A DNA stretch of 57,729 nucleotides from an uncultured Myxococcales bacterium (lineage in GTDB: Bacteria; Myxococcota_A; UBA9042). The stretch is from assembly GCA_903955385.1 (NCBI GenBank), contig CAJBNH010000104.1:1-57729 (forward strand), written 5' to 3'. Both the position numbers and the translations under genes were made by a program. The notes under the pieces are model-generated. The model was not told the DNA's origin, did not search any database, and was given only the letters and a program-made list of their open reading frames with translations. Shown piece after piece: positions 23,443 through 44,213 of this stretch; positions within the stretch are counted from its first letter, which is position 1, and every line of letters starts with the position of its first letter.

Positions 23443-23485
23443 CCCTCGCCTCTGCGCCGCGGGTATGTGCAGGTTCGCAGACCGT

Positions 23486-23515
23486 TTGTGTTCACCCCCC
23501 CGGATCGCATACAGT
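23486..23515 (+). promoter_or_regulatory. Putative promoter of the giant lipoprotein gene
   Basis: TTGTGT, 18 bases, then TACAGT (4 of 6 to the -10 consensus). Transcription would start about 40 bases before the ATG. Weak match, judged by eye. Confidence 0.3.
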
Positions 23516-23560
23516 CTTGGCGACTTGTGCCGGCTCAGCCGGACGCGGAAAGGGGGCAGC

Positions 23561-26500
23561 ATGGCGGCGCGGCAACGGTTCGCTCAGTTCCTTGCAGCCC
23601 GGCGCGGGATCCTTCTGATTTCGTTGCTGATCTTCGCTGCCTCCGCTCAGGGTTGCCGGGGCTCGGCGATCGGCACCTCGTCCGAGCCGCTGGGTGGCCC
23701 CGTCCTGACCTTCCCCGATGGTGGGATGGACGGCGACGCCGTTTCCCCGACCTGCTTGACCGACGTGGACTGCGCACCCTTGGCCAAGTCGCCGTGTACC
23801 TTGGCGATCTGCGAGCCTGTCAGCCGCCGCTGCGTCACCGTCCCGCGCCCTGAGTTCGCCGCCTGCACCTCCACCGACCTCTGCGTTGCCGAAGCCGTCT
23901 GCTTTGGCGGCACCTGCCAGCCCCTGACCCCGCGCACCTGCGACGACGGCAACCCCTGCACGATCGACGCGTGCGACTCCGCCATCGGCTGCACCGCGCT
24001 GCCCGCGGACGCGACGGTTGCCTGCTCAGACGACAACCCCTGCACCTTGGGCGACCACTGCCAGGCCGGCTCGTGCACCTCTGTCCTGAACACCTGCAGC
24101 TGCGATCTGGCCAGCGACTGCACGGCGACGCTTGCCGACCCGTGTGCCGCGCCGATGCAGTGCTCGGGCGGGTTCTGCGTGCCGCTGCCCGACTCCGTCA
24201 CTTCGTGCGACGACAAGAATCCTTGTACCATCGATACTTGCGATTCCCAGGTGGGGGGCTGCATCCACGCAGAGCGGGCCGACGGTCTCGCCTGCGACGA
24301 CGGCAGCATCTGTACCCAAGGCGACGTCTGCCTGTCGGGTTCGTGCGTGTCGGCCGGCAAGCTGCCGTGCGCTGAGGCACCTGGCGCGTGTCCGACCACC
24401 TGCGACCCTGCCGTGGGCTGCAGCGCCGACGCCACCCCGACGACCGGGCCTTGCGACGACGGCGACGACACCACGACCGGCGACCAGTGCCTGCAGGGCG
24501 CTTGCGTGGGTCAGCCGACCGGCAAGTGTTTGACGGATGCCGACTGCCCGCCCGCCGCCGACTGTTTGGGCAAGCCGGTGTGCCGCCTGGGTCTTTGCAT
24601 GATCGACACCGATCTGGCCGTGGGCTGTCCCGCCGACCCGACGCAGACCTGCGTGCTGCCCGTCTGCACCGCGACCGGCTGTCAGACCTATGCCGCGGCA
24701 AAGGGGGCTCCCTGCCAGGACGGTTCGCAGTGCACCCACGGCGACCAGTGCTCGGCCAACGGCGGCTGCATGCCCGGCCCCGAGCTGAACTGCGACGACG
24801 CCGACCCCTGCACCTACGACGTCTGCGACGCGACGGTCGGCTGCAAGGCCACCCCGGCGGCGGGCGGAACCGCGTGCCAGGACGGCGACCCCTGCACCAC
24901 CGGCGACACCTGCGGCGACGGCAGCTGCGTGGCCGGACCTCACGTTTGCGACGACGGCGAGCCGTGCACCACCGATCTGTGCGACCCGGCAAAGAACAAC
25001 GCGTGCAGCCACTTGGACGCGGTCGAGGGTTCCGGCTGCGAGGACGGCAACCCCTGTACCGTCGGCGGCGCGTGCCAGGCCGGCGTGTGCGTGGGCGGAA
25101 TCAAGCTCGTGTGTGATGACGGCAGCCCGTGCACCAAGGACGCGTGCACCGAGCAAGGCACCTGCAGCCACGAACCGATCGACGCCCCCGACGGTCAGGT
25201 CGCGTGCGACGACGGCGACTCGTGCACCTCTGCCGACAAGTGCACGGCGGGCAAGTGTGAGGGCGTGTCGGGTGTGTGCCAGTGTGGCAAGGACTCGGAT
25301 TGTCAGGGGTTTGAGGACGCCAACCTGTGCAACGGCACCCTGCGGTGCATCAACCACGCCTGCGAGGTCGACCCCGGCACGCTGGTCGAGTGCCCCGCGC
25401 CGTCCAGCGCCTGTGCGGCTGTGCAGTGCCAGCCGTCCACCGGCCAGTGCTTCGAGGTCTCGATGCCCGGCGCCCCCTGCGACGACGGCGACATCTGCTC
25501 CACCCAGGACACCTGCCTGTCCGGCGGCGTGTGCGTCGGTGGACCGCCTGTTTTGTGCACGGATGGTGACCTTTGCACGGTAGATTCCTGTGACCCGAAC
25601 AAGGGTTGCACGTTTGTCGTCGGGGTCGGCGTTTCGGCCCCTTGCGACGACGGCAACGCCTGCACGTTCGGCGACAAGTGCGGCGCCAACGGCTGCGAGT
25701 CCGGCATCAACGCGTGCCAGTGCCAGACCGACGGCGACTGTCAGGCCTTCGACGACGGCAACGTCTGCAACGGCGGACTGCTGTGCAAGCAGGGACTTTG
25801 CGTGGCCGACGGCAAGGGCGTGACCTGCCCGGACCCCGGCGGACCCTGCACTCCCACGGCGTGCGACCCCAAGACCGGCCAATGCCTCTCCACCGCACTG
25901 TTGGACGGCTCTGCGTGCGAGATCGCCGCGACTTGCGCGACTGGCGGCATCTGCAAGGGTGGCGAGTGTCTGGGCGCTCAGGTGGCCAGCTGCGACGACC
26001 AGAACCCGTGCACCAAAGACTCATGCACGCTCGACGGCTGCCAGCACGCTGTCCAGCAGGGGCTATCTTGCAGCGACGGCAACGCGTGCACCGCCAACGA
26101 AACTTGCGGCGCAACCGGCACTTGCGGCGGCGGCACCAACGTCTGCAACTGCCAGCTCGACATCGACTGCCCCGACGACGGCGACAAGTGCAACGGCGTG
26201 TTCGAGTGCAAGGGCGGATTCTGCCAGCCCAAGTCTGGCTCGGTCGTCCAGTGCGACGCGACCCAGAACACCCCGTGCAGCGTGAACACCTGCCAGCCCA
26301 CCACCGGCCAGTGCGCGCCGGTCGTGACGGCCGACGGTCAGAAGTGCGACGACGGCGACCAGTGCTCGCTGGGCGACGCCTGTCTGGCAGGAAAGTGCAA
26401 GGCGGGAGCCGGGCTTGCGTGCGACGACCAGAACCCCTGCACCGACGACGGCTGCAACCCGGCGCAGGGCTGCTGGCATCAGGCGAACACCAAGACCTGT

Positions 26501-29500
26501 GACGACGGCAACCAGTGCACCGTCGGCGACGTGTGCGCGTCCGGCAAGTGCCAGTCGGGGCTGGGCAGCTGCGACTGCCAGATCGATCAGGACTGCGTGG
26601 CCAAGGACGACGGCAACGCGTGCAACGGCGTGGTCAAGTGTCAGCAGGGCCTGTGCAAGCTCGACGCCACCACGATTGTCACCTGCGACGCCTCGCTGAA
26701 CACCAGCTGCAAGGTCAACGCCTGCATGCCGGCCAGCGGCAAGTGCGCGCTGACGAACGTGCCCGACCTGACCGGGTGCGACGACCAGAGCGCCTGCACC
26801 CAGACCGACCGCTGCGTGGCCGGCCAGTGCGTGGGCAACGCGGTCGCTTGCGACGACGGCAACTCGTGCACGGCTGATTCCTGCGACGCCAAGCTGGGTT
26901 GCGTGTCCAAGCCGTCCGCCGGCACCTGCGACGACGGTGACGCCTGCACCAAGCCCGACACCTGCCAAGCCGGCGTGTGCAAGGCGGGACCCAACACCTG
27001 CCCGGTGTGCACCAAGGACGCCGACTGCCCCGACGACGGCAACCTGTGCAATGGCCTGCAGTATTGCGGCCCTGCGGGCGTGTGCGCGGCCAAGCCCGGC
27101 ACCACGGTCGTCTGCGGCGCCGGTAATGCCTGCAACGCCAACACCTGCCAGCCCAACACCGGCAAGTGCGTGCTGGTGCCGGTCACCAACGGCTCGCCGT
27201 GTGACGACGCCACCGTGTGCAGCGCCACGTCTTCCTGCTTCGGCGGCGCGTGCGTGGGCGCCAACCTGGTCGACTGCAACGACCAGAACGCCTGCTCTGC
27301 CGACGCCTGCGACCCCGTCAAGGGCTGCACGCACACCGCGACCGGCGCCACCTGCGACGACGGCAACGCCTGCACCGTGGGCGACCTGTGCACGCCCGAC
27401 CTGAAGTGCCTGCCGGGGGCCAACAAGTGCGCCTGCCAGCTCGACAGCGACTGCAAGAACGACGCGGACTTGTGCAACGGCACCCTGATCTGCTCGGGCA
27501 ACCAGTGCGTGGTCAAGCCCGGGTCGGTCATCGCCTGCCCGCCCGGAGGCATTCCCTGCTTGGTCGGCACGTGCACGCCCGCGACCGGCCAGTGTGGCGT
27601 TCAGCTTCTGCCCGACGGTGCGGCGTGCGACGACGGCACGGCGTGTTCGACGGGAGAGAAGTGCAATTCGGGCAAGTGCATCGGTTCGCAATTGGTGTGC
27701 AACGACAAGAACCCGTGCACCAAGGATTCCTGCGACGCCAAGCTGGGTTGCGTTACGACACCGGCACCCGGCGCGTGCGACGACGGCAATGCTTGCACGG
27801 TGGGCGACGCCTGCCAGAACGGCGCTTGCCAGCCCGGCGCCAACACCTGCCAGTGCCAAACCGCGGCCGACTGCGCGGCTTTCGAAGACGGCAACGTGTG
27901 CAACGGCAAGCTGACGTGTCTGGCCGGCAAGTGCGCCGTCGACCCCGCGACGGTGGTCGTGTGCGCTGACGACGGCTTGAGCTGCACCGCGGCGACCTGC
28001 AACCCCTTGAACGGCCAATGCACTCAGGCCCCCGCGACCAACGGCACCCCGTGCGGCGGCGCTGAGCTCTGCGGCGGCTCTGGCACCTGCCAGACCGGCA
28101 AGTGCACCGGCACCAGCGGCTGCGCCGACGACGGCAACCCGTGCACCACCACGATCTGTGACGGCAAGGGCACGTGCGGTACCCAACCCGCTGTCGCCAC
28201 CTGCGAGGACGGCGATGCGTGCACCGTCGGCGACGCCTGTCAGGCCGGCAAGTGCGTCGCGGGCACCAACACCTGCGCCTGCAAGACCAACGTCGATTGC
28301 GTGGGTTACGACGACGGCAACCTGTGCAACGGCGTGTTCACGTGTCAGGTGGGCCAGTGCAAGCTCGACCCCAAGACCATCGTGACTTGCGTCCCCGGGG
28401 CCAACACCTGCGTCACGCCCGTCTGCCTTGCCGCGACTGGCCAGTGCCAGGACCAGTCCGCGCCCAACGGCACCCCGTGTGACGACGGCAACGCCTGCAC
28501 GACGTCCGGCCAGTGCGCCAGCGGCCAGTGTCTGGTGCAGAAGGTCACGTGCAACGACAACAACGGCTGCACCACCGATACGTGCGACACCGTGGTGGGC
28601 TGCAAGTACGCGAATGTGCCCCAGTTCCCGCCCACCACCTGCGACGACGGCGACCCCTGCACCGTCATCAGCGCGTGCAACGCCGGCAAGTGCCAGGGCC
28701 TGCTGAACACCTGCTTCTGCGGCAGCGACGCCGACTGCAAGGACGACGGCAACCTCTGCAACGGCATCTCGACGTGTCAGGGCGGCACCTGCAAGACCAA
28801 GGCGGGCAGCGTGATCACCTGCAGCACCACGGGCGACACCGCGTGCCTGAAGAACCAGTGCGTGCCGGCGACCGGTGCCTGCGTCAAGGCGCCCAGCGCG
28901 GCCGGAACCGCGTGCGACGACGCCAACTTGTGCACAGGCGGCGACGTGTGTTCGCTGGGCAACTGCATCGGCGTGCCGTTCGACTGCGCCGACGCCGTCA
29001 ACTGCACCGTCGACGCCTGCGTGCCGGCCCAGGGCTGCATCCACACGCCCAACAACACCGCGTGCGCGGACGCTTCGGTCTGCACCGAGGACATTTGCGA
29101 CGCGACCGCTGGCTGCATGTCGTCGGCCAAGCCCGGCCTGCCGTGCGACGACGGCGACGCGTGCACCGCAGGCGAGAAGTGCCTGGTGCTCAGCGGTGGG
29201 GTCCAGTGCGGCGGAGGGGCGACGGTCGACTGCAACGACCTGAACCCGTGCACGGCGGATTCTTGCCAGAAGACGACCGGTTGCGCCCACGCCCCGCAAG
29301 TCGGCGCGACCTGCGACGACGGCAACGTCTGCACCAGCGGCGACGCCTGCGGGGCAACCGGCAAGTGCGAGGGCAAGGCCTCTACCTGCGACGACAACAA
29401 CCTTTGCACGACCGACGCTTGCTCAGCCGCCACAGGCTGCACGCATGTCGCCAACAACGCGGTCTGCGACGACGGCAATGTTTGCACCAAGGGCGACACG

Positions 29501-30583
29501 TGTCAGGCGACCAAGTGCGTGGGCGCGGCCGTCTCCTGCGACGATGGCAACCCTTGCACCCAGGACGTCTGTACAACAGGTGTCGGCTGCCAGTCGTCCC
29601 CAGTCGCGGCCGGCACCGCGTGCAATGATGGCAATGCCTGCACTTCGCCCGACACCTGCGCGGCCGGCAAGTGCACGGGACCCGCCAAGACGTGCGATGA
29701 CGCCAACCCCTGCACCAGCGATGCCTGTGACGCCGTGACGGGGGCGTGCGTGACCAAGCCGCTGCCGGGAGGCGCCTGCAACGACGCCGACGCCTGCACC
29801 AGCCTTGACGTTTGTCAGGCGTCGGGCAAGTGCGCGGGACAGGTCAAGGACTGCACCGACGCCAACACCTGCTCGGTCGACAGCTGCCAGAGCGCGACCG
29901 GCAACTGCCTGCACACCCCCAGCCCGGGCGCCACGTGCGACGACGGTCAGCCTTGCACTGCGCCGGACTTGTGCAGCGCGGCCGCTACCTGCATCGGTTC
30001 GCCCAAGGTCTGCGACGACGCCAAGGCGTGCACCACCGACAAGTGCGACGCGGCGACCGGCCAGTGCCTGTTCACGGCGATCCCCGGGATCACCAAGAAC
30101 TTTGAGGATGGCTCGACCAGCGGGTGGGCCTTCCAGTCCCTGAACCAGCAGATTCAGTGGACGCTCGACAAGCTCAAGTCCAGCTCGCCCTCGGTCTCTC
30201 TGTACGTCGGTCACATCGTGCCCGCGACTCAGCAGCACACCTACGACGTGGGCCCGGGCCTTGCGACGGCCACCCTGTCGAACATCGTCATTCCGGCTGG
30301 CGTGCAGAATGCCAAGCTGACCGTGCAGGTCTGGTTCGACCGCGACCCCAACCAGGCCGCCGGCTGCAACAATCTGTCCGACCGGGTGGGCGTGCTGGTC
30401 AACAGCCAAATCGCGACCCAGCTGTGTGTGCGCACGACGGCCTTCCAGCTGCTGACGGTCGACCTGCAAGCCTACGCTGGCCAGACCATCAGCATCGGTC
30501 TGACGTTTGCGCACAACATGCAGAACAACAACGGGCAGGGCGCTTGGTTCGACGACCTTGCGGTGACTTGGACCTGCCCTTAG
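23561..30583 (+). CDS. Giant cysteine-rich repeat lipoprotein
   Basis: About 2340 residues. The ATG follows AAAGGGGG. Residues 1-31 are a basic and hydrophobic signal ending in SAQGC with a candidate lipidated Cys32, so the protein is probably surface-anchored. From about residue 60 to 2175 the chain is a run of short disulfide-type modules of the form CDDGNxCTxDxCDxxxGC. I count about 49, matching the slime-mould CTDC repeat (Pfam Dicty_CTDC). The middle has nine longer super-repeats, listed separately. The last 160 residues, beginning NFEDGSTSGWAFQS, form a beta-rich domain like a carbohydrate-binding or MAM-type jelly roll. A stalk-like adhesin is the simplest reading. Codon use is uniform, with no sign of frameshift. 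Confidence 0.92.
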   Translation: MAARQRFAQFLAARRGILLISLLIFAASAQGCRGSAIGTSSEPLGGPVLTFPDGGMDGDAVSPTCLTDVDCAPLAKSPCTLAICEPVSRRCVTVPRPEFAACTSTDLCVAEAVCFGGTCQPLTPRTCDDGNPCTIDACDSAIGCTALPADATVACSDDNPCTLGDHCQAGSCTSVLNTCSCDLASDCTATLADPCAAPMQCSGGFCVPLPDSVTSCDDKNPCTIDTCDSQVGGCIHAERADGLACDDGSICTQGDVCLSGSCVSAGKLPCAEAPGACPTTCDPAVGCSADATPTTGPCDDGDDTTTGDQCLQGACVGQPTGKCLTDADCPPAADCLGKPVCRLGLCMIDTDLAVGCPADPTQTCVLPVCTATGCQTYAAAKGAPCQDGSQCTHGDQCSANGGCMPGPELNCDDADPCTYDVCDATVGCKATPAAGGTACQDGDPCTTGDTCGDGSCVAGPHVCDDGEPCTTDLCDPAKNNACSHLDAVEGSGCEDGNPCTVGGACQAGVCVGGIKLVCDDGSPCTKDACTEQGTCSHEPIDAPDGQVACDDGDSCTSADKCTAGKCEGVSGVCQCGKDSDCQGFEDANLCNGTLRCINHACEVDPGTLVECPAPSSACAAVQCQPSTGQCFEVSMPGAPCDDGDICSTQDTCLSGGVCVGGPPVLCTDGDLCTVDSCDPNKGCTFVVGVGVSAPCDDGNACTFGDKCGANGCESGINACQCQTDGDCQAFDDGNVCNGGLLCKQGLCVADGKGVTCPDPGGPCTPTACDPKTGQCLSTALLDGSACEIAATCATGGICKGGECLGAQVASCDDQNPCTKDSCTLDGCQHAVQQGLSCSDGNACTANETCGATGTCGGGTNVCNCQLDIDCPDDGDKCNGVFECKGGFCQPKSGSVVQCDATQNTPCSVNTCQPTTGQCAPVVTADGQKCDDGDQCSLGDACLAGKCKAGAGLACDDQNPCTDDGCNPAQGCWHQANTKTCDDGNQCTVGDVCASGKCQSGLGSCDCQIDQDCVAKDDGNACNGVVKCQQGLCKLDATTIVTCDASLNTSCKVNACMPASGKCALTNVPDLTGCDDQSACTQTDRCVAGQCVGNAVACDDGNSCTADSCDAKLGCVSKPSAGTCDDGDACTKPDTCQAGVCKAGPNTCPVCTKDADCPDDGNLCNGLQYCGPAGVCAAKPGTTVVCGAGNACNANTCQPNTGKCVLVPVTNGSPCDDATVCSATSSCFGGACVGANLVDCNDQNACSADACDPVKGCTHTATGATCDDGNACTVGDLCTPDLKCLPGANKCACQLDSDCKNDADLCNGTLICSGNQCVVKPGSVIACPPGGIPCLVGTCTPATGQCGVQLLPDGAACDDGTACSTGEKCNSGKCIGSQLVCNDKNPCTKDSCDAKLGCVTTPAPGACDDGNACTVGDACQNGACQPGANTCQCQTAADCAAFEDGNVCNGKLTCLAGKCAVDPATVVVCADDGLSCTAATCNPLNGQCTQAPATNGTPCGGAELCGGSGTCQTGKCTGTSGCADDGNPCTTTICDGKGTCGTQPAVATCEDGDACTVGDACQAGKCVAGTNTCACKTNVDCVGYDDGNLCNGVFTCQVGQCKLDPKTIVTCVPGANTCVTPVCLAATGQCQDQSAPNGTPCDDGNACTTSGQCASGQCLVQKVTCNDNNGCTTDTCDTVVGCKYANVPQFPPTTCDDGDPCTVISACNAGKCQGLLNTCFCGSDADCKDDGNLCNGISTCQGGTCKTKAGSVITCSTTGDTACLKNQCVPATGACVKAPSAAGTACDDANLCTGGDVCSLGNCIGVPFDCADAVNCTVDACVPAQGCIHTPNNTACADASVCTEDICDATAGCMSSAKPGLPCDDGDACTAGEKCLVLSGGVQCGGGATVDCNDLNPCTADSCQKTTGCAHAPQVGATCDDGNVCTSGDACGATGKCEGKASTCDDNNLCTTDACSAATGCTHVANNAVCDDGNVCTKGDTCQATKCVGAAVSCDDGNPCTQDVCTTGVGCQSSPVAAGTACNDGNACTSPDTCAAGKCTGPAKTCDDANPCTSDACDAVTGACVTKPLPGGACNDADACTSLDVCQASGKCAGQVKDCTDANTCSVDSCQSATGNCLHTPSPGATCDDGQPCTAPDLCSAAATCIGSPKVCDDAKACTTDKCDAATGQCLFTAIPGITKNFEDGSTSGWAFQSLNQQIQWTLDKLKSSSPSVSLYVGHIVPATQQHTYDVGPGLATATLSNIVIPAGVQNAKLTVQVWFDRDPNQAAGCNNLSDRVGVLVNSQIATQLCVRTTAFQLLTVDLQAYAGQTISIGLTFAHNMQNNNGQGAWFDDLAVTWTCP
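25205..29066 (+). repeat. Nine tandem super-repeats of 423-438 bp inside the giant lipoprotein gene
   Basis: Units start with the TGC of a CDDGxxCTxxD module at 25205, 25643, 26069, 26498, 26927, 27353, 27776, 28202 and 28640. Spacings are 438, 426, 429, 429, 426, 423, 426 and 438 bases, all multiples of three (141-146 residues). Each unit runs: CTVGD-type module, N-x-C-x-C linker, a DxDC...DDGNxCNG segment, a GxC...VVxC segment, C.PxTGxC, a CDDGxxCS module and an NPCTxDxCD module. They are intragenic protein repeats. The seventh copy is degenerate around CGGAELC, where a module has lost its CDDG start. Confidence 0.9.
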
Positions 30584-30906
30584 CGGTCGCGGGGCGCGTG
30601 GGCCAGTCTGAGTGGTCCGCTGCACCTTCTTCACGATCAACGTGCCGCGTGATGGACCGCCACAGCGCTGCCGAGGGCTTCCACCGTCAGCATCCGCATC
30701 GCCACGGTCGTTTCCAGCCACGGGCCTGTCCTGACGCCAGCCACAATTCGCAAGACTCGCGTCAAATCGGCCGAAAGCTTGCAATCCTGTGAGGCTCTGG
30801 CTAGGTTGCTGCGAAGTTGTCCGCTGCGGCGGCACCAGCGGAGCGAGCCGGGCCGGGCCGGATCGCACAAAGACCCGCAGTCAGGACGAACAAGGAGATA
30901 GGCTCT
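30584..30906. other. Intergenic region after the giant lipoprotein gene
   Basis: 323 bases between two same-strand surface-protein genes. No protein family sequence was recognised in the short frames here. It carries a promoter-like pair close to the downstream gene (separate entry). No good terminator hairpin with a T-tract was found after the giant gene. Confidence 0.45.
30779..30807 (+). promoter_or_regulatory. Putative promoter for the somatomedin-B-like gene
   Basis: TTGCAA, 17 bases, then TAGGTT, giving a leader of about 90 bases. It matches consensus at 4 of 6 and 3 of 6 positions with ideal spacing. Confidence 0.4.
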
Positions 30907-31998
30907 ATGAACTCAATGTGGAAGATTGCGCTGTGTACCCTTTGCATGGCCTTCGTGCCGGCTCTTGCGATGGCGGAAGACGTCATCTCGACCCCGGACG
31001 ATGCGACCGCAACGGACATCGCCGGCGACACGACCCAGACAACCGCCTTCAACACCAATCCTTGCTGGGACGCCAAGTGCCCGGAAGAGACGGCTGCCTG
31101 CCAGACCGACACGAAGTGCAATGCCTTCGTCGTCTGCGGCCAGAAGCCCGCCGCCGAGATCGACGCCTGCTACAAGGCCGCCGGTCTGACCGAGCAGCCC
31201 GCCCAGTACCAGCCCATGGCCGTCTGCGGCTGGAAGGCCTGCGCCGACCCCACCGCCGGTTCCTGCGTCGACAAGTGCGGCAAGTGGGACAACTCCTGGC
31301 CGTGCAACTGCGACGACGCCTGCACCGAGATGGGCGACTGCTGCTCCGACCTGGCCGACGTCTGCGTCCCCGCAGCGGCCCCGACCTGCAAGGACAGCGG
31401 CTGCGATGCTCAGGGTCTGAACCCCGACGGCTCGCAGGCTGCCTGCTACTGCGACACCGGTTGCGCCCAGTACGGCGACTGCTGCGAGGACATCGCTGAG
31501 TTCTGCGGCGGCGGCACGGAGCCCGGCGGCGACGGTCTCTGCGCTGACACCGCATGCGACGGCGCTGGCGTCACGGCCGACGGTGCCGAGGCCGCTTGCT
31601 ACTGCGACGGCGAGTGCGAGAAGTACGGCGACTGCTGCAGTGACTACGAAACCGTCTGCAAGAACCCGGTCTGCGTGCCGGCTTGCGACGGCAAGGCCTG
31701 CGGCCCCGACGGTTGCGGCGCGACCTGCGGCACCTGCACCGAGGGCGCCTGCGACATCCTGACCGGCCAGTGCAAGCCCACGACGGAGCCCACGGACACC
31801 ATCGGCACGGACATCACCGGAGGCTCGGACGCGATCAAGATCGACACCAAGTCCGACACGACCACTCCGGCCGCTACGGCGACCAGCTCGTCCAGCGGCG
31901 GTTGCTCCTCGACCGGCACGCCGGTGGGTCAGGGCGGCCTGCTGCTCGCGCTGTTCGCGCTGATCGGTGCGGTGGTTCTGCGTCGTCGTATCGTCTAG
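30907..31998 (+). CDS. Surface protein with three somatomedin-B-like domains and a C-terminal sorting signal
   Basis: 363 residues; AAGGAGA lies nine bases before the ATG. A signal peptide (1-23, ...ALAMA) is followed by a Thr/Asp linker and a Cys-rich region. Three segments (about 120-153, 161-200, 212-251) repeat the pattern C-x-C-x3-C-x3-GDCC-x-D-x4-C, the signature of somatomedin-B domains. Then comes ACGPDGCGATCGTC, a Thr-rich stalk, and a C-terminal GGCSS motif, a hydrophobic helix (about 344-358) and RRR. That ending is the plan of MYXO-CTERM-type sorting signals, processed at the Gly-Cys and displayed on the outer surface. A strong terminator follows, so it is probably monocistronic. 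Confidence 0.88.
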   Translation: MNSMWKIALCTLCMAFVPALAMAEDVISTPDDATATDIAGDTTQTTAFNTNPCWDAKCPEETAACQTDTKCNAFVVCGQKPAAEIDACYKAAGLTEQPAQYQPMAVCGWKACADPTAGSCVDKCGKWDNSWPCNCDDACTEMGDCCSDLADVCVPAAAPTCKDSGCDAQGLNPDGSQAACYCDTGCAQYGDCCEDIAEFCGGGTEPGGDGLCADTACDGAGVTADGAEAACYCDGECEKYGDCCSDYETVCKNPVCVPACDGKACGPDGCGATCGTCTEGACDILTGQCKPTTEPTDTIGTDITGGSDAIKIDTKSDTTTPAATATSSSSGGCSSTGTPVGQGGLLLALFALIGAVVLRRRIV

Positions 31999-34046: not shown

Positions 34047-34817
34047 CTACTTCGGGGGCATTCGCAGCGCGCCGTCGAGGCGAATCACCTCGCCGTTCAG
34101 CATCGGATTGCGGACGATGTGCTCGGCCAGCTGCGCGTACTCGTCGGGGTCGCCCAGCCGCGAAGGGAAGGGAACTTGCGTGGCGAGCTGCGTTTGCACC
34201 ACTTCCGGCAGCCCGGCCAGCATCGGGGTCTTGAACAGGCCGGGGGCGATGGTGCAGATGCGGATGCCGTTGGGGGCGAGGTCGCGGGCGATGGGCAGCG
34301 TCATGCCGACGATGGCGCCCTTTGACGCGGAGTACGCTGCCTGGCCGATCTGGCCGTCGAACGCCGCGACACTGGCGGTGCAGACGAAGCAGCCGCGCTC
34401 GCCGCCCTCGTTCGGGTCGGTCTCGATCAAGCGGGCCGCGACCAAACGAATCACGTTGAATGAGCCGACGACGTTGACCTGCAGCACCTTGGCGAACAGA
34501 CCCAGATCGTGCGGCCCCTTCTTGGTGACGGTGCGGTTGGCGACGGCGATGCCCGCGCAGTTGACCGCGACGTTGACGGGGCCGCCGAACTTCGCCTGCG
34601 CCGCGTCCAAAGCGGCGGTGATGTCGGCCTCGGAGGTGACGTCGCACGGGGCGAATAGGGCGTTGCCGCCGATCTCTTCGGCGACCGCTGCGCCTTGGCT
34701 GCTCGGCAAGTCGACGACGACCACCCTGGCGCCCAAGCGACCGAAGCGGAGGGCGGTGGCCCGGCCCAGACCAGAGGCGGAACCGGTGACGAGCGCGATG
34801 ACCTTGGTGGGATCCAT
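34047..34817 (-). CDS. Short-chain dehydrogenase, HSD10-like 3-hydroxyacyl-CoA dehydrogenase
   Basis: 256-residue classical SDR: NAD-binding [12 protein letters not shown] at about 11-22, D36 in VVVVDLP (NAD preference), NCAG at about 86-89, and the catalytic S149, Y162 and K166 (YSASK). The phrases [22 protein letters not shown] and [13 protein letters not shown] are characteristic of the 17-beta-HSD type 10 group, which oxidises 2-methyl-3-hydroxybutyryl-CoA in isoleucine breakdown and other 3-hydroxyacyl-CoAs. GGAG precedes the ATG. Position next to the acyl-CoA carboxylase cluster fits branched-chain catabolism. Confidence 0.9.
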
Positions 34818-34901: not shown

Positions 34902-35447
34902 CTAGCGCAACGCGGTGCCTTCCAACGCCAGCAGCAGTCGCTTGCGGTCCAAGCCACCGGTGTAGCCGCCCAGACGGCCGCCCTGTTGCAGCACGCGGTG
35001 GCAGGGCACGACCACGGCGACCGGGTTGTTGCCCAAGGCGTTGCCGACGGCTCTGGGGGCCCCCGGCGAGCCGATGCGCGTTGCCAAGTCTTTGTAGGCG
35101 CACGACTCGCCATGGCCCAGCCGACACAGCTCGACGAGTACGCGCTCTTGAAACGGCGGCAGGCCCCGCAGATCTACGGTCAGGTCGAAGTCCTTGCGGG
35201 TACCGAGGAAATAGGCGTCAAGCTGGTCGCAGTCGGGTTCTGGCTGCTCGACGGCGCGGACGAGACCGACCGGCAGACGCTTGCGCAGCTGGGCGACGAC
35301 CTGCTCGAGCGACCCCTGAAGTGCCAGCGCTGCGAGTCCGTGGTCGGTCCAGGCCAGCGCGAGCACCCCAAGCGGCGAGGGATGCAGGCAAGTCAGCAGG
35401 TCGATCGGGTGCTGGGGGCCTGGTCCGGTGATGAGCCGCAATGGCAT
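34902..35447 (-). CDS. ogt: Methylated-DNA--protein-cysteine methyltransferase
   Basis: 181-residue suicide repair enzyme removing alkyl groups from O6-alkylguanine. The C-terminal domain has [52 protein letters not shown] and [18 protein letters not shown]149 in PCHRV is the acceptor, and the downstream Arg/Asn recognition helix is intact. GAGGAAG lies five bases before the ATG. A longer in-frame reading into the divergent carboxylase gene is rejected. It is divergent from the carboxylase beta gene and has no obvious functional link with it. Confidence 0.95.
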
Positions 35448-35592
35448 GATCTTCCTCAGAATGGTTGCGCCAGCGCGCTTGGAGCGAGGGGCAGTGGTCC
35501 CCCCCATTCTGACCCTGCCGGTCGCGAACGCAACGACCCCTGCGCGGCCGTCGATTCGACGACAAGCGGCGGCGGTGATACAACGCCGCGCC

Positions 35593-37200
35593 ATGGACAA
35601 GCTAGGCTCTGCCGTCGACCTCCACTCCCCCTCCTTCCAGACCCACCGCGCGCACCACCTGCGCTTGGCGGAAGAGCTGCGCGAGCGGCTGGCCACCGCA
35701 CGAAAGGGCGGGCCACCTTCGGCGCGGCAGAAGGTTCTGGATCGCGGCGGGTTGCTGGTGCGTGATCGGATCTCGCTGTTGCTGGACGCCGGCAGCCCGT
35801 TTCTGGAGGTGTCGCCGCTGGCCGCCTTCGGCATGTACGAGGACACGGCGCCGGCGGCGGGCATGGTCGCAGGCGTAGGGCGCGTCGAGGGCCGCGAGGT
35901 CATGGTCGTCGCCAACGACGCGACGGTGAAGGGCGGCACGTATCTGCCCATCACCGTCAAGAAGCACCTGCGCGCCCAAGAGATTGCCGCTGAGAATCGG
36001 CTGCCGTGCATCTATCTGGTCGACTCGGGCGGCGCCTTTCTGCCGCAGCAGGCCGAGGTCTTTCCGGACCGGGACCACTTCGGGCGAATCTTCTACAACC
36101 AGGCCAGGTTGTCGGCCGCGGGCATCCCGCAGGTCGCGGTGGTGCTGGGCATGTGCACGGCGGGCGGCGCGTACGTCCCTGCCATGAGCGACGAGGCGAT
36201 CATCGTCCGCAACCGCGGCACCATCTATCTGGCGGGACCTCCGCTGGTGAAGGCCGCGACGGGCGAGGAGATCTCGGCCGAGGATCTGGGCGGCGGCGAC
36301 GTGCACACGCGCATCTCCGGCGTGGCGGACCACCTGGCTGAGGACGACGCCCACGCGTTGCACATCGCCCGGCGCATTGTCTCGACGTTTCACACGGTCA
36401 AGCGGCCCGACGGCTACTTTGCCGAGCCCGAGCCGCCGGCCTTCGACCCCGAAGAGCTGCTGGGCATCGTCCCCACCGACCTGCGCGTGCCCTATGACGT
36501 GCGTGAGGTCATCGCGCGCATCGTCGACGGCTCGCGGATGCACGAGTTCAAGCCGCGCTATGGCACGACGATCGTGACGGGTTTTGCGAGGATCCACGGC
36601 ATGCCGGTGGCGATCCTGGCGAACCAAGGGGTGCTGTTCTCGGACTCGGCGCTGAAGGCGACGCACTTCATCGAGCTGGCCTGTGCCCGCAAGACCCCCC
36701 TGATCTTCCTGCAGAATGTCAGCGGCTTCATGGTGGGGCGGCAGGCAGAGCACGGCGGCATCGCGCGCGACGGGGCCAAGATGGTGCACGCCGTTGCGGT
36801 GGCGCAAGTGCCCAAGATCACGGTCCTGATCGGCGGAAGCTACGGCGCGGGCAACTACGGCATGTGCGGCCGGGCGTACCAGCCCCGGTTCCTGTTCTCG
36901 TGGCCGAACTCACGGATTTCCGTGATGGGCGGCGAGCAGGCGGCGGCCGTGATGGCGACGGTCAAGCACGAGCAGCGTCGGTCGGAAGGTCGCGAGCTGT
37001 CGGCGGCTGAGGACGAAGCCATCCGCGCGCCGATCCTCGCCCGCTTCGAGCACGAGGGCAGCCCGTACTACGCAACGGCACGCCTGTGGGACGACGGCAT
37101 CGTCGAGCTGCCACAGACCCGCGACGCCCTGGCTCTGGCGTTGAGCGCGGCCTACAACGCGCCGATCGGCGAGTGGCGGCCCGGCGTAATCCGCATGTAG
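35593..37200 (+). CDS. mccB: Acyl-CoA carboxylase beta subunit, probably methylcrotonyl-CoA carboxylase
   Basis: 535-residue biotin-dependent carboxyltransferase subunit. It transfers carboxyl from carboxybiotin to an acyl-CoA. The N-terminal crotonase-fold half has [51 protein letters not shown] and [20 protein letters not shown]. The C-terminal half has [25 protein letters not shown] and [12 protein letters not shown]. The [13 protein letters not shown] stretch and the total length are typical of methylcrotonyl-CoA rather than propionyl-CoA carboxylases. It heads a six-gene plus-strand run with a hydratase, thiolase-fold protein, DUF35, biotin carboxylase and biotin carrier, as in leucine degradation. 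Confidence 0.92.
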
Positions 37201-37224: not shown

Positions 37225-38007
37225 ATGATGCGCTTTACCCTGCACGACGGCGTCGGCCGCGCCTGGTTCGACCGGGCCGAGCGACACAACGCGTTCGACG
37301 GCGCCATGCTGGAAGGCTTGCGCGACGCGCTGGACCGTTGGGAGGCCGACGATGCCTGCCGCGTGGTCGTGCTGGGGGCCAACGGGCCGTCGTTCTGTGC
37401 GGGGGCGGACCTGAAGTGGATGGCCGAACAGGGTCAGCTGGGGCCCGAGGTCAATCGACGCAACGCCATCGAGCTGGGCGAGACGTTTCAGCGGCTGGCG
37501 GCCTTTCCCAAGCCCGTGCTGGCGCGCATTCAGGGCGCGGCGCGCGGCGGCGGTGTGGGTTTTGCGGCGGCGGTGGACGTTGCCGTGGCCGTCGAGCGCG
37601 CGACGTTCGCGCTGACCGAGGTGCGGCTGGGGCTGGTGCCCGCGGTCATTTCTCCCTTTATCGTCGAGCGCTTGGGGCCCTCTCAGGCGCGGGCTCTGTT
37701 CCTGACCGGCGACGCGGTGTCGGCGACTGAGGCGCTGCGTCTGGGGCTGGTGCACCACGTGGTGGCGGACGAAGCGGCGCTGGATGCCAAGATCGACGCG
37801 CTGGTGGCTTCCTTGCGGTTGGGTGGCCCTGAGGCGTTGTCTGCCTGCAAGCGTCTGGTAGCTCAGGTGGCATTCCGACCGGCCGAGGCGATGCTGGGTG
37901 CGACGGCCGACGTGCTGGCCCAACGGCGTGCGTCGGCAGAGGCCGCCGAAGGCATGGCGGCGTTCGTGCAAAAGCGTCCCGCCGAGTGGACGCGCACAAA
38001 GACCTGA
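37225..38007 (+). CDS. Enoyl-CoA hydratase family, methylglutaconyl-CoA hydratase-like
   Basis: 260-residue crotonase-fold protein. The oxyanion-hole segment FCAGADLKWM (about 57-66) is the form usual in 3-methylglutaconyl-CoA hydratases (liuC/AUH), and RGGGVGFAAAVDVAVA supplies the second oxyanion glycine. The catalytic Glu is in FALTEVRLGLVPAVIS. It would hydrate 3-methylglutaconyl-CoA to HMG-CoA, the step directly after the carboxylase encoded 24 bases upstream. Two adjacent ATGs are possible starts. The assignment to leucine catabolism rests on motif and neighbours together. Confidence 0.88.
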   Translation: MMRFTLHDGVGRAWFDRAERHNAFDGAMLEGLRDALDRWEADDACRVVVLGANGPSFCAGADLKWMAEQGQLGPEVNRRNAIELGETFQRLAAFPKPVLARIQGAARGGGVGFAAAVDVAVAVERATFALTEVRLGLVPAVISPFIVERLGPSQARALFLTGDAVSATEALRLGLVHHVVADEAALDAKIDALVASLRLGGPEALSACKRLVAQVAFRPAEAMLGATADVLAQRRASAEAAEGMAAFVQKRPAEWTRTKT

Positions 38008-38156: not shown

Positions 38157-39515
38157 ATGAGGACGGTATACGTGGTGGCCGGCGGGGTCAGCAAGTTTGC
38201 TAAGGCCCGGCCAGACAAGACGTTTCAGGCAATCGTGAAGGAGGCGTACGACTACTGCCTTCAGGATCTGGGCATCGACGCAAGGCAGGCCTTCGAGCTG
38301 ATCGACGGCACGGTGGCGTCGTACTTCTCGGACCACTTCCAGCGGCAATTGATGAGCGGGATCATGGTCCAGGACTACCTGGGTCTGGTGCCCAAGCCGT
38401 CACATCGCGTGGAGGGAGGCGGCGCCACTGGCGGCCTGTCGTTCCAAGAGGCGTGGAAGAACATCGCCAGCGGCCACATGGACACCTGCTTGGTGTACGG
38501 CTTTGAGACGATGAGCCACGTCGAGACGTGGAAGGGCAACGAATTCATTGCGTTGGCATCCGACGTGTCGTTCGACTTTCCGGTCGGCGGCTTCTACTCG
38601 GGCTACTACGCGATGATGGTCGTGCGCCACATGAAGGAATTCGGCACGACGGTCGAGCAGCTGGCCAAGGTGTCGGTCAAGAACCACATCAACGCCCTGC
38701 ACAACCCGTATGCCCAGAAGCGCAAGCGCCTGACGGTCGAGGACGTGCGCAACTCGCCCATGGTCGCCTGGCCTTTGACGCGCCTGGACATCTGCACGAT
38801 GAGCGACGGCGCGGCCGCAGCGATTCTGGTGTCTGAGGACGGCTTGGCGAAGATGGAGAAGGCTGCGGGCCGTCGGCTGCCCAAGGTCAAGATCACCGGC
38901 ATCGGCCGTGGCACCGACGCCATGCGCATGTCGGACCGCCCCCACCAGAGCTTTGACGCCTTCTACGCCGCCAACAGCCTCGACAACGAGCAGGACGCCG
39001 ACAGCAAGGCGTACTACAAAGAGCTGTGGGGCAACGGGTTCCGCTATCCAGGCGTGCACTCGTTCCGCGCCGGTCGCATGGCGTCGAAGCAGGCGTACAA
39101 GCACGCCGGCATCCACGATCCCCTCAAGGAGATCGACTTCGTCGAGCTGCACGACGCCTATACCTCGTCAGAAATCCAGACCTACGAGGACATGGGCCTG
39201 TGCCGTTACGGCGAGGGCGGCACGTTCGCCGAGTCGGGCAAGGCGTTTCTGCCGGGCATCGACTACGGTCTCGACCTTCCCCACCAGCCCATCTGCCCGG
39301 TGAATCCGTCGGGTGGCCTGATCGCCTGCGGTCACCCCGTCGGCGCCACGGGCCTGATGCAGGCGGTGTTCGGGCTGTGGCAGCTGCAGAACACGTTCGG
39401 CAAGCACTTGGGAGACGACAAGCTCCAGGTCAAGGGTGCGCGTCGCGGCGTCGTTCACAGCCACGCCGGCACCGGCACCTACGTCACCGCCACGGTCATG
39501 GAGCGCGAACCCTAG
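38157..39515 (+). CDS. Thiolase-fold protein lacking the nucleophilic cysteine
   Basis: 452-residue protein of the SCP2-thiolase type. Family phrases are RVEGGGATGGLSFQEAW, GHMDTCLVYGFETMS, VELHDAYTSSEIQTYEDMG and NPSGGLIACGHPVGATG. The loop that normally reads ENACASG has Gly89 where the acyl-accepting Cys belongs. The C-terminal Cys/HN-GLGG element is HSHAGTG. H393 of the CGHP motif is kept. Normal thiolysis is therefore unlikely. Cys-less thiolase-fold proteins partnered with DUF35 include the steroid retro-aldolase Ltp2/ChsH2. Here the DUF35 gene follows 72 bases later, inside a leucine-type cluster, which suggests cleavage of a 3-hydroxyacyl-CoA. GAGG precedes the ATG. Confidence 0.88.
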   Translation: MRTVYVVAGGVSKFAKARPDKTFQAIVKEAYDYCLQDLGIDARQAFELIDGTVASYFSDHFQRQLMSGIMVQDYLGLVPKPSHRVEGGGATGGLSFQEAWKNIASGHMDTCLVYGFETMSHVETWKGNEFIALASDVSFDFPVGGFYSGYYAMMVVRHMKEFGTTVEQLAKVSVKNHINALHNPYAQKRKRLTVEDVRNSPMVAWPLTRLDICTMSDGAAAAILVSEDGLAKMEKAAGRRLPKVKITGIGRGTDAMRMSDRPHQSFDAFYAANSLDNEQDADSKAYYKELWGNGFRYPGVHSFRAGRMASKQAYKHAGIHDPLKEIDFVELHDAYTSSEIQTYEDMGLCRYGEGGTFAESGKAFLPGIDYGLDLPHQPICPVNPSGGLIACGHPVGATGLMQAVFGLWQLQNTFGKHLGDDKLQVKGARRGVVHSHAGTGTYVTATVMEREP

Positions 39516-39587
39516 TAGGGCCTCTCGTCGCTTCCCTTCACCGCAACGCTGCATCGACGTGCGAACGTCCCGTGAGGCAGAAATCCC

Positions 39588-40124
39588 ATGGCTGACCACA
39601 TCAAGACGCATCCCGAGGAGTCTCTGGAAGGCGCGGTTGTCTTCAACGTACCGATCCCCACCGACCTGGAAGCGCTGACGGGCATGGCGCCCATCGTCAT
39701 CAAGTACCCGTATCACATCGACTACGTGCATTCCTACGGACAGGACTCACCGTTCTTCGCCGGTCTTGCGAACAAGAAGCTGCTGGGCACCAAGTGCCAG
39801 TCCTGCGGCCACACGTTCGCTACGCCTCGCATGTCCTGCATGCAGTGCGGTGGGGCGACCAAGTGGGTGGAGATTCCGCACGAGGGCAAGGTCCACACGT
39901 TCACCGTCTGCCACTTCGGCAGCGAGGCGTTCCTGCCCGAGTGTCCGTTCGTCCTTGCGCTCATCGAGTTCGAAGGGGTCGACACCCTGTTCCTGACGCG
40001 GCTGATGGGCGTGGACCCGCTGAAGCCGTCGATGGACTGGGTCGGGACCAAGGTCAAGGCGAAGTTCCGCCGCCTGTCGCAGCTCAAGCCGACAGACGTG
40101 TGGTTCGTACCCGTCGGTTCGTGA
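39588..40124 (+). CDS. DUF35 zinc-ribbon/OB-fold protein, partner of the thiolase-fold protein
   Basis: 178 residues. After an N-terminal helical extension of about 60 residues comes a rubredoxin-like zinc ribbon, with C70, C73, C84 and C87 in GTKCQSCGHTF...MSCMQCG, and then an OB fold containing GKVHTFTVCHFGSEAF, PFVLALIEFEGVDTLFLTRL and GTKVKAKFRRL. DUF35 proteins bind acyl-CoA or bridge active sites beside thiolase-fold enzymes. It lies between the thiolase-fold gene and the biotin carboxylase gene. The extension is longer than in minimal DUF35 proteins and might contact the larger subunit. Confidence 0.92.
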   Translation: MADHIKTHPEESLEGAVVFNVPIPTDLEALTGMAPIVIKYPYHIDYVHSYGQDSPFFAGLANKKLLGTKCQSCGHTFATPRMSCMQCGGATKWVEIPHEGKVHTFTVCHFGSEAFLPECPFVLALIEFEGVDTLFLTRLMGVDPLKPSMDWVGTKVKAKFRRLSQLKPTDVWFVPVGS

Positions 40125-40253
40125 CGTGCATCCCACCGCCTGGGCGCGCCATTGGGGGCGCGTCTGGGTCGTGGGCAGATCGGTTACGGTGTGTCGCGCG
40201 GGGGGCGTGGCCAGGCCGTTCGCGAGGGCCGAAGTCCTCGGGAGGCATCGGGC

Positions 40254-41786
40254 TTGAAGAAGGTCCTCATCGCGAACCGTGGCGAGATTGCCATCCGGGT
40301 TGCTCGTGCATGTCGGGTCCTTGGGCTGCGGTCGGTCGCTGTCTACTCGGAAGCCGACGCGATGGCGCGGCACGTGCGCAAGGCCGACGAGGCGGTGTGC
40401 ATTGGCCCGCCCGAGCCCTCCAAGTCCTACCTGGACATTGACCGGGTCATGGATGCCGTGCGCAAGACGGGTGCCGACACCGTGCATCCCGGCTATGGCT
40501 TTCTCAGCGAGAACACGGACTTCGCTCGTGCCGTGATCGATGCTGGCCTGACGTGGGTGGGACCGCCTCCCGGCGTCATCGGCCCGCTGCAGTCCAAGAC
40601 TGGGGCCAAGGCGCAGGCGGAAGCGATCGGGCTTGCGACCGTGCCCGGCGCGGTGCTGGACGACCCGGCGGACGAGGCGGTGTTGGCCGCGGCGGCAAGT
40701 CTGGGTTATCCGGTCATCGTCAAGCCTGAGGCAGGCGGCGGCGGCAAGGGCATGGTCCGCGTCGACCGGCCAGAAGACCTGCTGGCGGCAGTCGCGGCGG
40801 CGCGGCGGGTGGCCAAGGGCGCCTTCAAGAGCGACGGACTGTTCCTGGAGCGCCACGTCGGCCACGCGCGGCACATCGAAGTGCAAGTGCTGGGCGACCG
40901 CCACGGCCAGGTCACGCACGTCCACGACCGCGAGTGCAGCGTCCAGCGTCGCCACCAGAAGATCATCGAGGAGTCGCCCTGCACGGCCATCACACCAGCC
41001 GAGCGCGAGCAGATTTGCGACATGGCGTACAGGTTTGCGAGCCACGTCGGCTACGAGGGCGCGGGCACGGTCGAGTTTCTGTGGGACCCGCAGACCCGCA
41101 AGGCCTGCTTCCTCGAGATGAACACGCGCATCCAGGTCGAGCATCCGGTCACCGAAGTGGTGACAGGCATGGACCTTGTCGTCGCCCAGCTGAGGCTGGC
41201 GGCCGGCGAGCCCCTGTCGCGGGTGTGGCAGCCCAGCGAGCACCTGCCGCGTGGCCATGCGATCGAGGTGCGGCTGTATGCCGAGGACCCAGCGAACGGC
41301 TTCCTGCCCCAAACCGGCAAGCTGCAGCGGGTCATCTGGCCCGATGCGCCGTTTGTTCGTGTGGACGCGGGCTTCGAGACGGGCGACGTGGTGTCGATGC
41401 ACACCGACCCGATGCTCGCCAAGATCATCGCGTGGGGCACCGACCGCAACGACGCGATCGCCCGGCTGCAGGGCGCACTGAGAGAGACCGTCGTCCACGG
41501 CGTGGTCTGCAACCTGCCGATTCTGGTCGATATCCTGCACCATCCTGACTTTGTCTCGGGCAACCTGCACACCACCTGGGTCGAAGAGGTCTATGGCATC
41601 GGCGGTCCTGCCTTGGGCGAGTCTCCCGATCTCGAGGCGCTGCTTGCCCTTGCGATGGCCGGTCCGTCCGGTCCGCCGCAGCGGGTCTCAGCGCGTGAGC
41701 CTGCCAGTCACCCGTACTCGAACGGCTTCGTCGACCCTTGGGCGTCCATCGCGGGCGTCGGGTTCGGCGTTGACGGATCGCGGTAG
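40254..41786 (+). CDS. Biotin carboxylase subunit of acyl-CoA carboxylase
   Basis: 510 residues, starting at a TTG with GGGAGG eight bases upstream; the reading begins KKVLIANRGEIAIRVARAC, the universal start of the family. The ATP-grasp core has KPEAGGGGKGMVRV, DRECSVQRRHQKIIEE and FLEMNTRIQVEHPVTEVVTGMDLV with the catalytic Glu/Arg. It ends about 60 residues after the biotin-carboxylase C-terminal domain with no biotin attachment site, unlike usual methylcrotonyl-CoA carboxylase alpha chains of about 650 residues. The biotin domain is encoded 15 bases downstream. Upstream in-frame codons add no family sequence. Confidence 0.93.
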   Translation: MKKVLIANRGEIAIRVARACRVLGLRSVAVYSEADAMARHVRKADEAVCIGPPEPSKSYLDIDRVMDAVRKTGADTVHPGYGFLSENTDFARAVIDAGLTWVGPPPGVIGPLQSKTGAKAQAEAIGLATVPGAVLDDPADEAVLAAAASLGYPVIVKPEAGGGGKGMVRVDRPEDLLAAVAAARRVAKGAFKSDGLFLERHVGHARHIEVQVLGDRHGQVTHVHDRECSVQRRHQKIIEESPCTAITPAEREQICDMAYRFASHVGYEGAGTVEFLWDPQTRKACFLEMNTRIQVEHPVTEVVTGMDLVVAQLRLAAGEPLSRVWQPSEHLPRGHAIEVRLYAEDPANGFLPQTGKLQRVIWPDAPFVRVDAGFETGDVVSMHTDPMLAKIIAWGTDRNDAIARLQGALRETVVHGVVCNLPILVDILHHPDFVSGNLHTTWVEEVYGIGGPALGESPDLEALLALAMAGPSGPPQRVSAREPASHPYSNGFVDPWASIAGVGFGVDGSR

Positions 41787-41801: not shown

Positions 41802-42326
41802 ATGACCATCTGGCTCGAGACCCCTGCGGGACACCGCGTCGAGGTGCTGACCACTCCGGGACCTGAGGGAACTCGGACGGTTGTCCGCGCCGGCGGCGGC
41901 GATGTGCTGGTGCGAGAAGTGATGCTGCGACAGGCCCCCAACGGCGACTGGATGGTCGAGTCGGGCGGCGTGACGCGCACGGTGCAGGTCACCGAAGACC
42001 GCGACGTCATCTGGTTGAGCGACCCCGGGGCCACCGACCCCCGCAGCGCCACCGTGGTGTTGCGCAAGGTCATGTCGCGACCGTCCGGCCCCCCGGCCGA
42101 CCGTCACCTGTGTACGCCGATGACCGGCCGCGTGGTGTCGGTCGCCGTGAAGCCGGGAGAGCAGGTCCGTCGAGGTCAGGCGCTTGTGGTCGTCGAGGCG
42201 ATGAAGATGGAGCACGTGGTGCGTGCGCCCTGGGACGGCACCGTCGAGCGTCTGGCCTGTCACGTGGGGCTGATCGTCGAGACCGGCGGTGAGTTGCTGG
42301 TGCTCGACCGCGCCCAAGCCAGCTAG
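41802..42326 (+). CDS. Biotin carboxyl carrier protein subunit
   Basis: 174 residues. The C-terminal lipoyl-like domain (about 103-170) carries the biotinylation motif EAMKMEH with K135 as the attachment lysine, and ends LIVETGGELLVL. The N-terminal 100 residues contain strands such as VRAGGGDVLVREVMLRQ and GDWMVESGGVTRTVQV that look like the BT linker domain of acyl-CoA carboxylase alpha chains. So the alpha subunit seems split into two genes here rather than fused. The stop codon lies within a hairpin shared with the convergent kinase gene. Confidence 0.93.
   Translation: MTIWLETPAGHRVEVLTTPGPEGTRTVVRAGGGDVLVREVMLRQAPNGDWMVESGGVTRTVQVTEDRDVIWLSDPGATDPRSATVVLRKVMSRPSGPPADRHLCTPMTGRVVSVAVKPGEQVRRGQALVVVEAMKMEHVVRAPWDGTVERLACHVGLIVETGGELLVLDRAQAS

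Positions 42327-42344: not shown

Positions 42345-42346
<2 letters not shown>
42321..42346. terminator. Hairpin covering both stop codons of convergent genes
   Basis: AGCTAGATTCTC and GAGAATCGAGCT are 12-base arms with one mismatch and a 2-base centre. The TAG of the biotin carrier gene is in the left arm; the kinase stop (read on the minus strand) begins in the right arm. There is no T-tract. It may act as a bidirectional RNA 3'-end structure. Confidence 0.55.
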
Positions 42347-44120
<1,774 letters not shown>

Positions 44121-44213
44121 GGCACTGGAGTATAGAGGGAAGTCGGGCAGTGGCAACGTTCCGGGCAGTCGCGCCGCAGCGAGACTGTGCAACCCCCTCG
44201 TTCTTCTCGACGG

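Follow-up and report, generated by a model that had tools for sequence, protein, structure and literature searches.

The closest described systems to the gene pair studied here, which encodes a thiolase-fold protein (T) and a DUF35 protein (D), are two aldolases and a group of archaeal thiolases. The steroid aldolase Ltp2-ChsH2 (6ok1) has a thiolase fold, a Gly in place of the nucleophilic Cys and a DUF35 partner, and it cleaves a tertiary 3-hydroxyacyl-CoA. The bile acid aldolase Sal-Shy (9myr) also carries a Gly for this Cys (Gly89) and a DUF35 partner, and performs an acetyl-CoA-releasing retro-aldol reaction. In both aldolases, the backbone NH of the Gly has been proposed to hold the beta-hydroxyl, with the Tyr of YDHF (Ltp2) or YDCY (Sal) acting as the base (PMC12329534). 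TbSLP, another thiolase-fold protein with a replaced Cys, shows weak malonyl-CoA decarboxylase activity (PMC12329534). The archaeal acetoacetyl-CoA thiolase/DUF35/HMG-CoA synthase complex (6esq, 6et9), in which DUF35 is a separate partner, and the Pyrococcus furiosus thiolase 7yvy share the thiolase fold and keep the nucleophilic Cys (ACASG). The cleavage of HMG-CoA in leucine breakdown is known from unrelated folds, namely the DRE-TIM barrel HMG-CoA lyase (NF004283, PF00682) and Rv2498c of Mycobacterium tuberculosis, a Mg-containing TIM barrel that is an (R)-HMG-CoA lyase (PMC6689899) and thus a precedent for the replacement of one fold by another.

The window, the whole 57,729-bp stretch of DNA analysed here, holds T and D between a methylcrotonyl-CoA carboxylase (MCC) beta gene and a hydratase gene on one side and the biotin carboxylase (BC) and biotin carboxyl carrier (BCCP) genes on the other, all on the + strand (Table 1). 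This placement, which the initial annotation had already described, agrees with both coordinates and Pfam matches.

Table 1. Features of the carboxylase cluster and its flank, in window positions.
Feature	Position	Strand	Length	Remark
SDR dehydrogenase	34047..34817	-		Divergent flank of cluster; synteny marker
MCC beta	35428..37200	+		True start probably near 35596
Crotonase-family hydratase	37225..38007	+		Proposed 3-methylglutaconyl-CoA hydratase
T, thiolase-fold protein without nucleophilic Cys	38157..39515	+	452 aa	Proposed 3-hydroxy-3-methylacyl-CoA (HMG-CoA) retro-aldolase
D, DUF35 partner	39588..40124	+	178 aa	zf-ChsH2 + OB_ChsH2_C (Pfam)
BC subunit	about 40251..41786	+		Same carboxylase
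BCCP subunit	41802..42326	+		Followed in relatives by HMG-CoA lyase, absent in the window

T matches the Pfam families Thiolase_N, Thiolase_C and Thiolase_C_1 and has an SCP2-like thiolase fold with N- and C-terminal thiolase domains. Its motifs are RVEGGGATGG (residues 84-93, with Gly89), HDAY (332-335), CGHPVGATG (391-399, with His393) and HSHAGTG (434-440). Scanning a single genome for each species gave homologues at 80 loci (70-82% identity). When aligned with the T of the window (81 sequences), Gly89 occupied the place of the nucleophilic Cys (CASG) of SCP2-type thiolases in 81/81. Ala334 and His434 (81/81 each) stand where the acid/base Cys (HDCF or CxGGG) would be expected. His332 (81/81) takes the position of the catalytic Tyr of Ltp2 and Sal, with Ala334 facing the essential Cys304 that accompanies Tyr302 in Sal; the equivalence of HDAY with YDHF/YDCY comes from a published HDCF/YDCY comparison (PMC12329534) and our own alignments. 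Asp333, His393, Ser435, His436, Gly438 and Thr439 were invariant as well, as were the stretches HSHAGTGTY and GH393P, and 206 of the 452 positions were at least 97% conserved among the 81 sequences, which rules out a decayed thiolase. From the 6esq alignment and general knowledge of thiolases, we take His434 to correspond to the second catalytic Cys in the classical enzymes. Three other cysteines (Cys213, Cys349, Cys391) are essentially invariant, and the 81-sequence alignment placed no Cys at either thiolase catalytic position. The initial annotation had read Gly89, the HSHAGTG loop and an intact His393 from the letters alone and had staked its reading on no other Cys aligning with the nucleophile; all of this holds, while its label "Cys-less" applies to the catalytic positions and not to the protein as a whole. 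The best profile for T, NCBIfam NF004982 (PRK06365; 627 bits, under the curated cut-off of 695), carries only the name "thiolase domain-containing protein".

The predicted structure of T (pLDDT 82.8, pTM 0.88; residues 120-146 under 50) matched SCP2 and archaeal thiolases with Z scores of 41 to 48, an SCP2-type fold. Individual scores were 47.9 for 7yvy, 45.6 for ST0096 of Sulfolobus tokodaii (4yzo), 45.3 for the archaeal acetoacetyl-CoA thiolase, 39.9 for Ltp2 and 38.9 for Sal. Judged by sequence, T is also nearer to the archaeal acetoacetyl-CoA thiolases (6esq/6et9 and 7yvy, 159 and 156 bits) than to Ltp2 (47 bits) or Sal, although these thiolases have ACASG where T has GGATG, and T also has its HSH loop. 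ST0096, a thiolase-like protein of unassigned function, is 35% identical to T and has likewise replaced its nucleophilic Cys, with Ser according to the alignment, but the HSHAGTG loop is absent from its aligned part.

D begins 72 bases after T, and its C4 zinc ribbon (Cys70/73/84/87) is intact, as the initial annotation had noted. At all 80 scorable loci, a D gene directly followed T, so that at the gene level the pair has the DUF35 partner known from Ltp2 and Sal. Together with the Gly at the nucleophile position, it thereby resembles the anatomy of Ltp2/ChsH2 and Sal/Shy. The analogy with Ltp2/ChsH2, drawn before this analysis, is therefore borne out for the Gly and the DUF35 partner and fails for the catalytic Tyr (PMC12329534). 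The four zinc-ribbon cysteines are replaced, often by Asp, Thr or Ser, in roughly two thirds of the homologous DUF35 partners (loci L037 to L116), and this loss coexists with an invariant T active site.

By score, the carboxylase beta subunit is an MCC beta, with 733 bits to the Pseudomonas aeruginosa MCC beta 3u9r and 725 bits to the human one, in agreement with the leucine-type carboxylase that had been suspected. The score to geranyl-CoA carboxylase was 451 bits, which rules out an Atu cluster, and most PCC chains reached at most about 277 bits; the exception, 9tps, is deposited as a PCC beta and scored 724 bits, like the MCC chains. The hydratase is 50-60% identical to those at the same position in same-family relatives. 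The window thus has MCC beta, hydratase, BC and BCCP in the orthologous order of a liu-type leucine operon, and the HMG-CoA lyase gene of such operons is missing from both the window and the genome. Past BCCP, the first long ORF to follow (42345-44192) lies on the - strand. A second MCC-beta-like carboxylase (51-55% identity) was seen beside the true MCC beta in G003, G010 and other same-family genomes.

Eight relatives, seven from the same family and one from the same class, have the order MCC beta, hydratase, BC, BCCP, HMG-CoA lyase, with MCC beta cut off by contig ends in two of them. Their lyases scored 396-425 bits to NF004283 (cut-off 246). Hydratase and BC overlap or nearly touch in these relatives (one gap of about 140 bases), whereas T and D lie in between in the window. 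The SDR flank is also divergent in four of the seven same-family relatives (66-76% identity). A profile search of the whole draft genome (5.3 Mb, 95.6% complete) for PF00682 (HMGL-like) returned no gene, while the same model matched in 14 of 14 well-known genomes used as a control. With no match at all to this family, LeuA-type proteins included, in a draft of that size and completeness, an HMG-CoA lyase hidden by fragmentation is unlikely. We then considered 25 genomes, including that of the window, whose MCC beta is a close one (60% identity or more). HMG-CoA lyase matches occurred in 23 (in pieces in two), and one further genome had only a short N-terminal lyase fragment, located on the MCC beta contig downstream of that gene. 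The window's genome was the sole one of the 25 without any lyase match and also the sole one with T. Among 53 relatives, HMG-CoA lyase was found in none of the seven genomes with T and T in no genome with the lyase, a count not corrected for the kinship of the T-bearing genomes. The absence of PF00682 proteins also means that the genome has no LeuA-type 2-isopropylmalate synthase, and leucine auxotrophy is possible.

The initial annotation had proposed that T and D cleave HMG-CoA and had made this dependent on the genome having no HMG-CoA lyase elsewhere; neither the lyase nor any other PF00682 gene was found. For this genome, an operon that is orthologous apart from the exchange of the lyase for T and D makes a strong circumstantial case that the pair may do the lyase's job, since the lyase is missing from the draft genome and the pair lies inside the same cluster. 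That part of the proposal gains from our comparison, but other genomes with T mostly do without MCC. The reading we favour for this genome, with a nearly even chance of being right, is that T and D form a thiolase-fold/DUF35 lyase that cleaves (S)-HMG-CoA in place of the lost DRE-TIM enzyme. The two proteins would form a complex that breaks a carbon-carbon bond in a tertiary 3-hydroxy-3-methylacyl-CoA, here (S)-HMG-CoA from the MCC and hydratase encoded next to them. The (S) form would be expected since the crotonase-type hydratase is an orthologue of those that accompany canonical HMG-CoA lyases in the relatives. The backbone NH of Gly89 might hold the beta-hydroxyl, in the manner put forward for Sal and Ltp2. 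The base that deprotonates it would most likely be one of the invariant His residues (His434, His332 or His393), possibly with a metal bound at the HSH motif. Cleavage of the C2-C3 bond would yield acetoacetate and an acetyl-CoA enolate, which would then be protonated. The loss of the Tyr used by the known aldolases (HDAY for YDHF/YDCY) speaks against such an activity.

T loci were found mostly in Chloroflexota and also in Myxococcota, Acidobacteriota, Melainabacteria, Methylomirabilota, Planctomycetota and others, making the T-D family a widespread, strongly conserved and so far uncharacterised one. In the literature library searched, we found no paper combining HMG-CoA lyase, thiolase and DUF35, and no title or abstract on the T family. 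In the tree, the T of the window grouped with those of Myxococcota. In four Anaerolineae, T-D adjoins MCC genes in other arrangements, divergent from MCC beta (G488, G555, G455) or from BC (G511), and in G455 T and MCC beta share one 4.4-Mb contig. The T of these four sits in the Chloroflexota clade, far from that of the window, suggesting that the linkage of T-D with MCC probably arose at least twice. Of 298 Anaerolineae, 85 had MCC, 30 HMG-CoA lyase and 47 T. Among those with MCC, the lyase occurred in 0/9 with T versus 24/76 without T (p about 0.04, uncorrected for kinship). Across all Anaerolineae, no positive association of T with MCC was found (9 genomes observed versus 13.4 expected), and 52 with MCC lacked both T and the lyase, indicating that other solutions exist.

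A universal linkage of T-D with MCC is ruled out, as about 47 of the 57 T-bearing genomes examined lacked a close MCC beta; HMG-CoA may therefore not be the substrate of the whole family. The commonest operon partners of T-D were acyl-CoA dehydrogenase, mutase, hydroxybutyryl-CoA dehydrogenase and acetoacetyl-CoA thiolase. At ten loci, T-D lies downstream of the large subunit of a B12 mutase with Phe/Gln at the positions of MCM Tyr89/Arg207 (Tyr/Gln in L116), Phe/Gln being the signature of isobutyryl-CoA mutase. Such surroundings, and the scarcity of MCC, favour a retro-aldolase for another branched 3-hydroxyacyl-CoA from the breakdown of branched-chain amino acids, isobutyrate or isovalerate, for example one that splits 3-hydroxyisovaleryl-CoA into acetone and acetyl-CoA with no need for MCC, HMG-CoA here being either left to a different enzyme or not cleaved. 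We consider this less likely, though a serious contender, as it leaves unexplained why the lyase was lost while MCC and hydratase were kept, with T-D inside their operon. It also leaves aside, unless acetone is carboxylated, the acetoacetate-CoA ligase genes found directly after T-D in L059 and after an intervening acyl-CoA dehydrogenase gene in L113 (855 and 903 bits to TIGR01217, cut-off 521). CoA-transferase genes adjoin T-D at several loci, in some as a glutaconate-CoA-transferase-like pair after it, and these neighbours and the ligases are enzymes that would use the product predicted from HMG-CoA. The theme common to the T-D contexts is the breakdown of short branched acyl-CoAs, and we infer that the family may have tertiary or branched 3-hydroxyacyl-CoAs at large as its substrates.

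Another enzyme could also do the cleavage, with T-D as an accessory of the leucine cluster: a TIM-barrel lyase of the CLYBL/Rv2498c type encoded elsewhere. Rv2498c fills this role in leucine breakdown (PMC6689899), genes resembling CLYBL (a citramalyl-CoA lyase relative) lie near T-D at six Anaerolineae loci, two of them MCC-adjacent clusters (L168, which also has a MaoC hydratase, and L169), and the 52 Anaerolineae with MCC and neither T nor HMG-CoA lyase show that there are other solutions. Rv2498c is (R)-specific, whereas hydratase orthology points to (S)-HMG-CoA, and no CLYBL-like gene occurred in about 270 kb of the 5.3-Mb genome (a 237-kb sample and two mutase regions), a sample too small for exclusion; we hold this reading improbable. 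Still less probable is a non-thiolytic role for T-D, as a decarboxylating or condensing enzyme or a CoA-binding scaffold. The nearest solved folds of T are indeed acetoacetyl-CoA thiolases and their relatives, and other thiolase-fold proteins with a replaced Cys exist (ST0096, with Ser, and TbSLP; PMC12329534). However, the invariance of the active site in 81 sequences argues against a pure scaffold, and in the operon the two genes have taken the place of a lyase gene.

The reading of T-D as an HMG-CoA lyase can be extended, more tentatively than for the single genome, to a new class of HMG-CoA (3-hydroxy-3-methylacyl-CoA) lyases, the third and unrelated to the other two. It would be a thiolase-fold/DUF35 type without the catalytic Cys and the Tyr of Ltp2/Sal, using invariant His residues and possibly a metal at HSH. 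This class would span Chloroflexota, Myxococcota, Acidobacteriota, Methylomirabilota, Planctomycetota and others, against which stand the mostly absent MCC, the neighbours of isobutyryl-CoA-mutase type and some CLYBL-like lyases. If true, thiolase-fold aldolases would extend from steroids into central amino acid metabolism, the last step of leucine breakdown would gain a further unrelated solution, and a large conserved family named only as thiolase domain-containing proteins would receive a testable function. Metabolic models built from genomes would then be wrong where they call the leucine pathway of these bacteria broken or count T genes as thiolases.

Elsewhere in the window, a 2372-aa ORF (23465-30583) overlaps many antisense ORFs and has no annotation. 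Positions 30817-31998 encode a protein with three Somatomedin_B domain matches, domains that are unusual in bacteria, and a MYXO-CTERM sorting signal.
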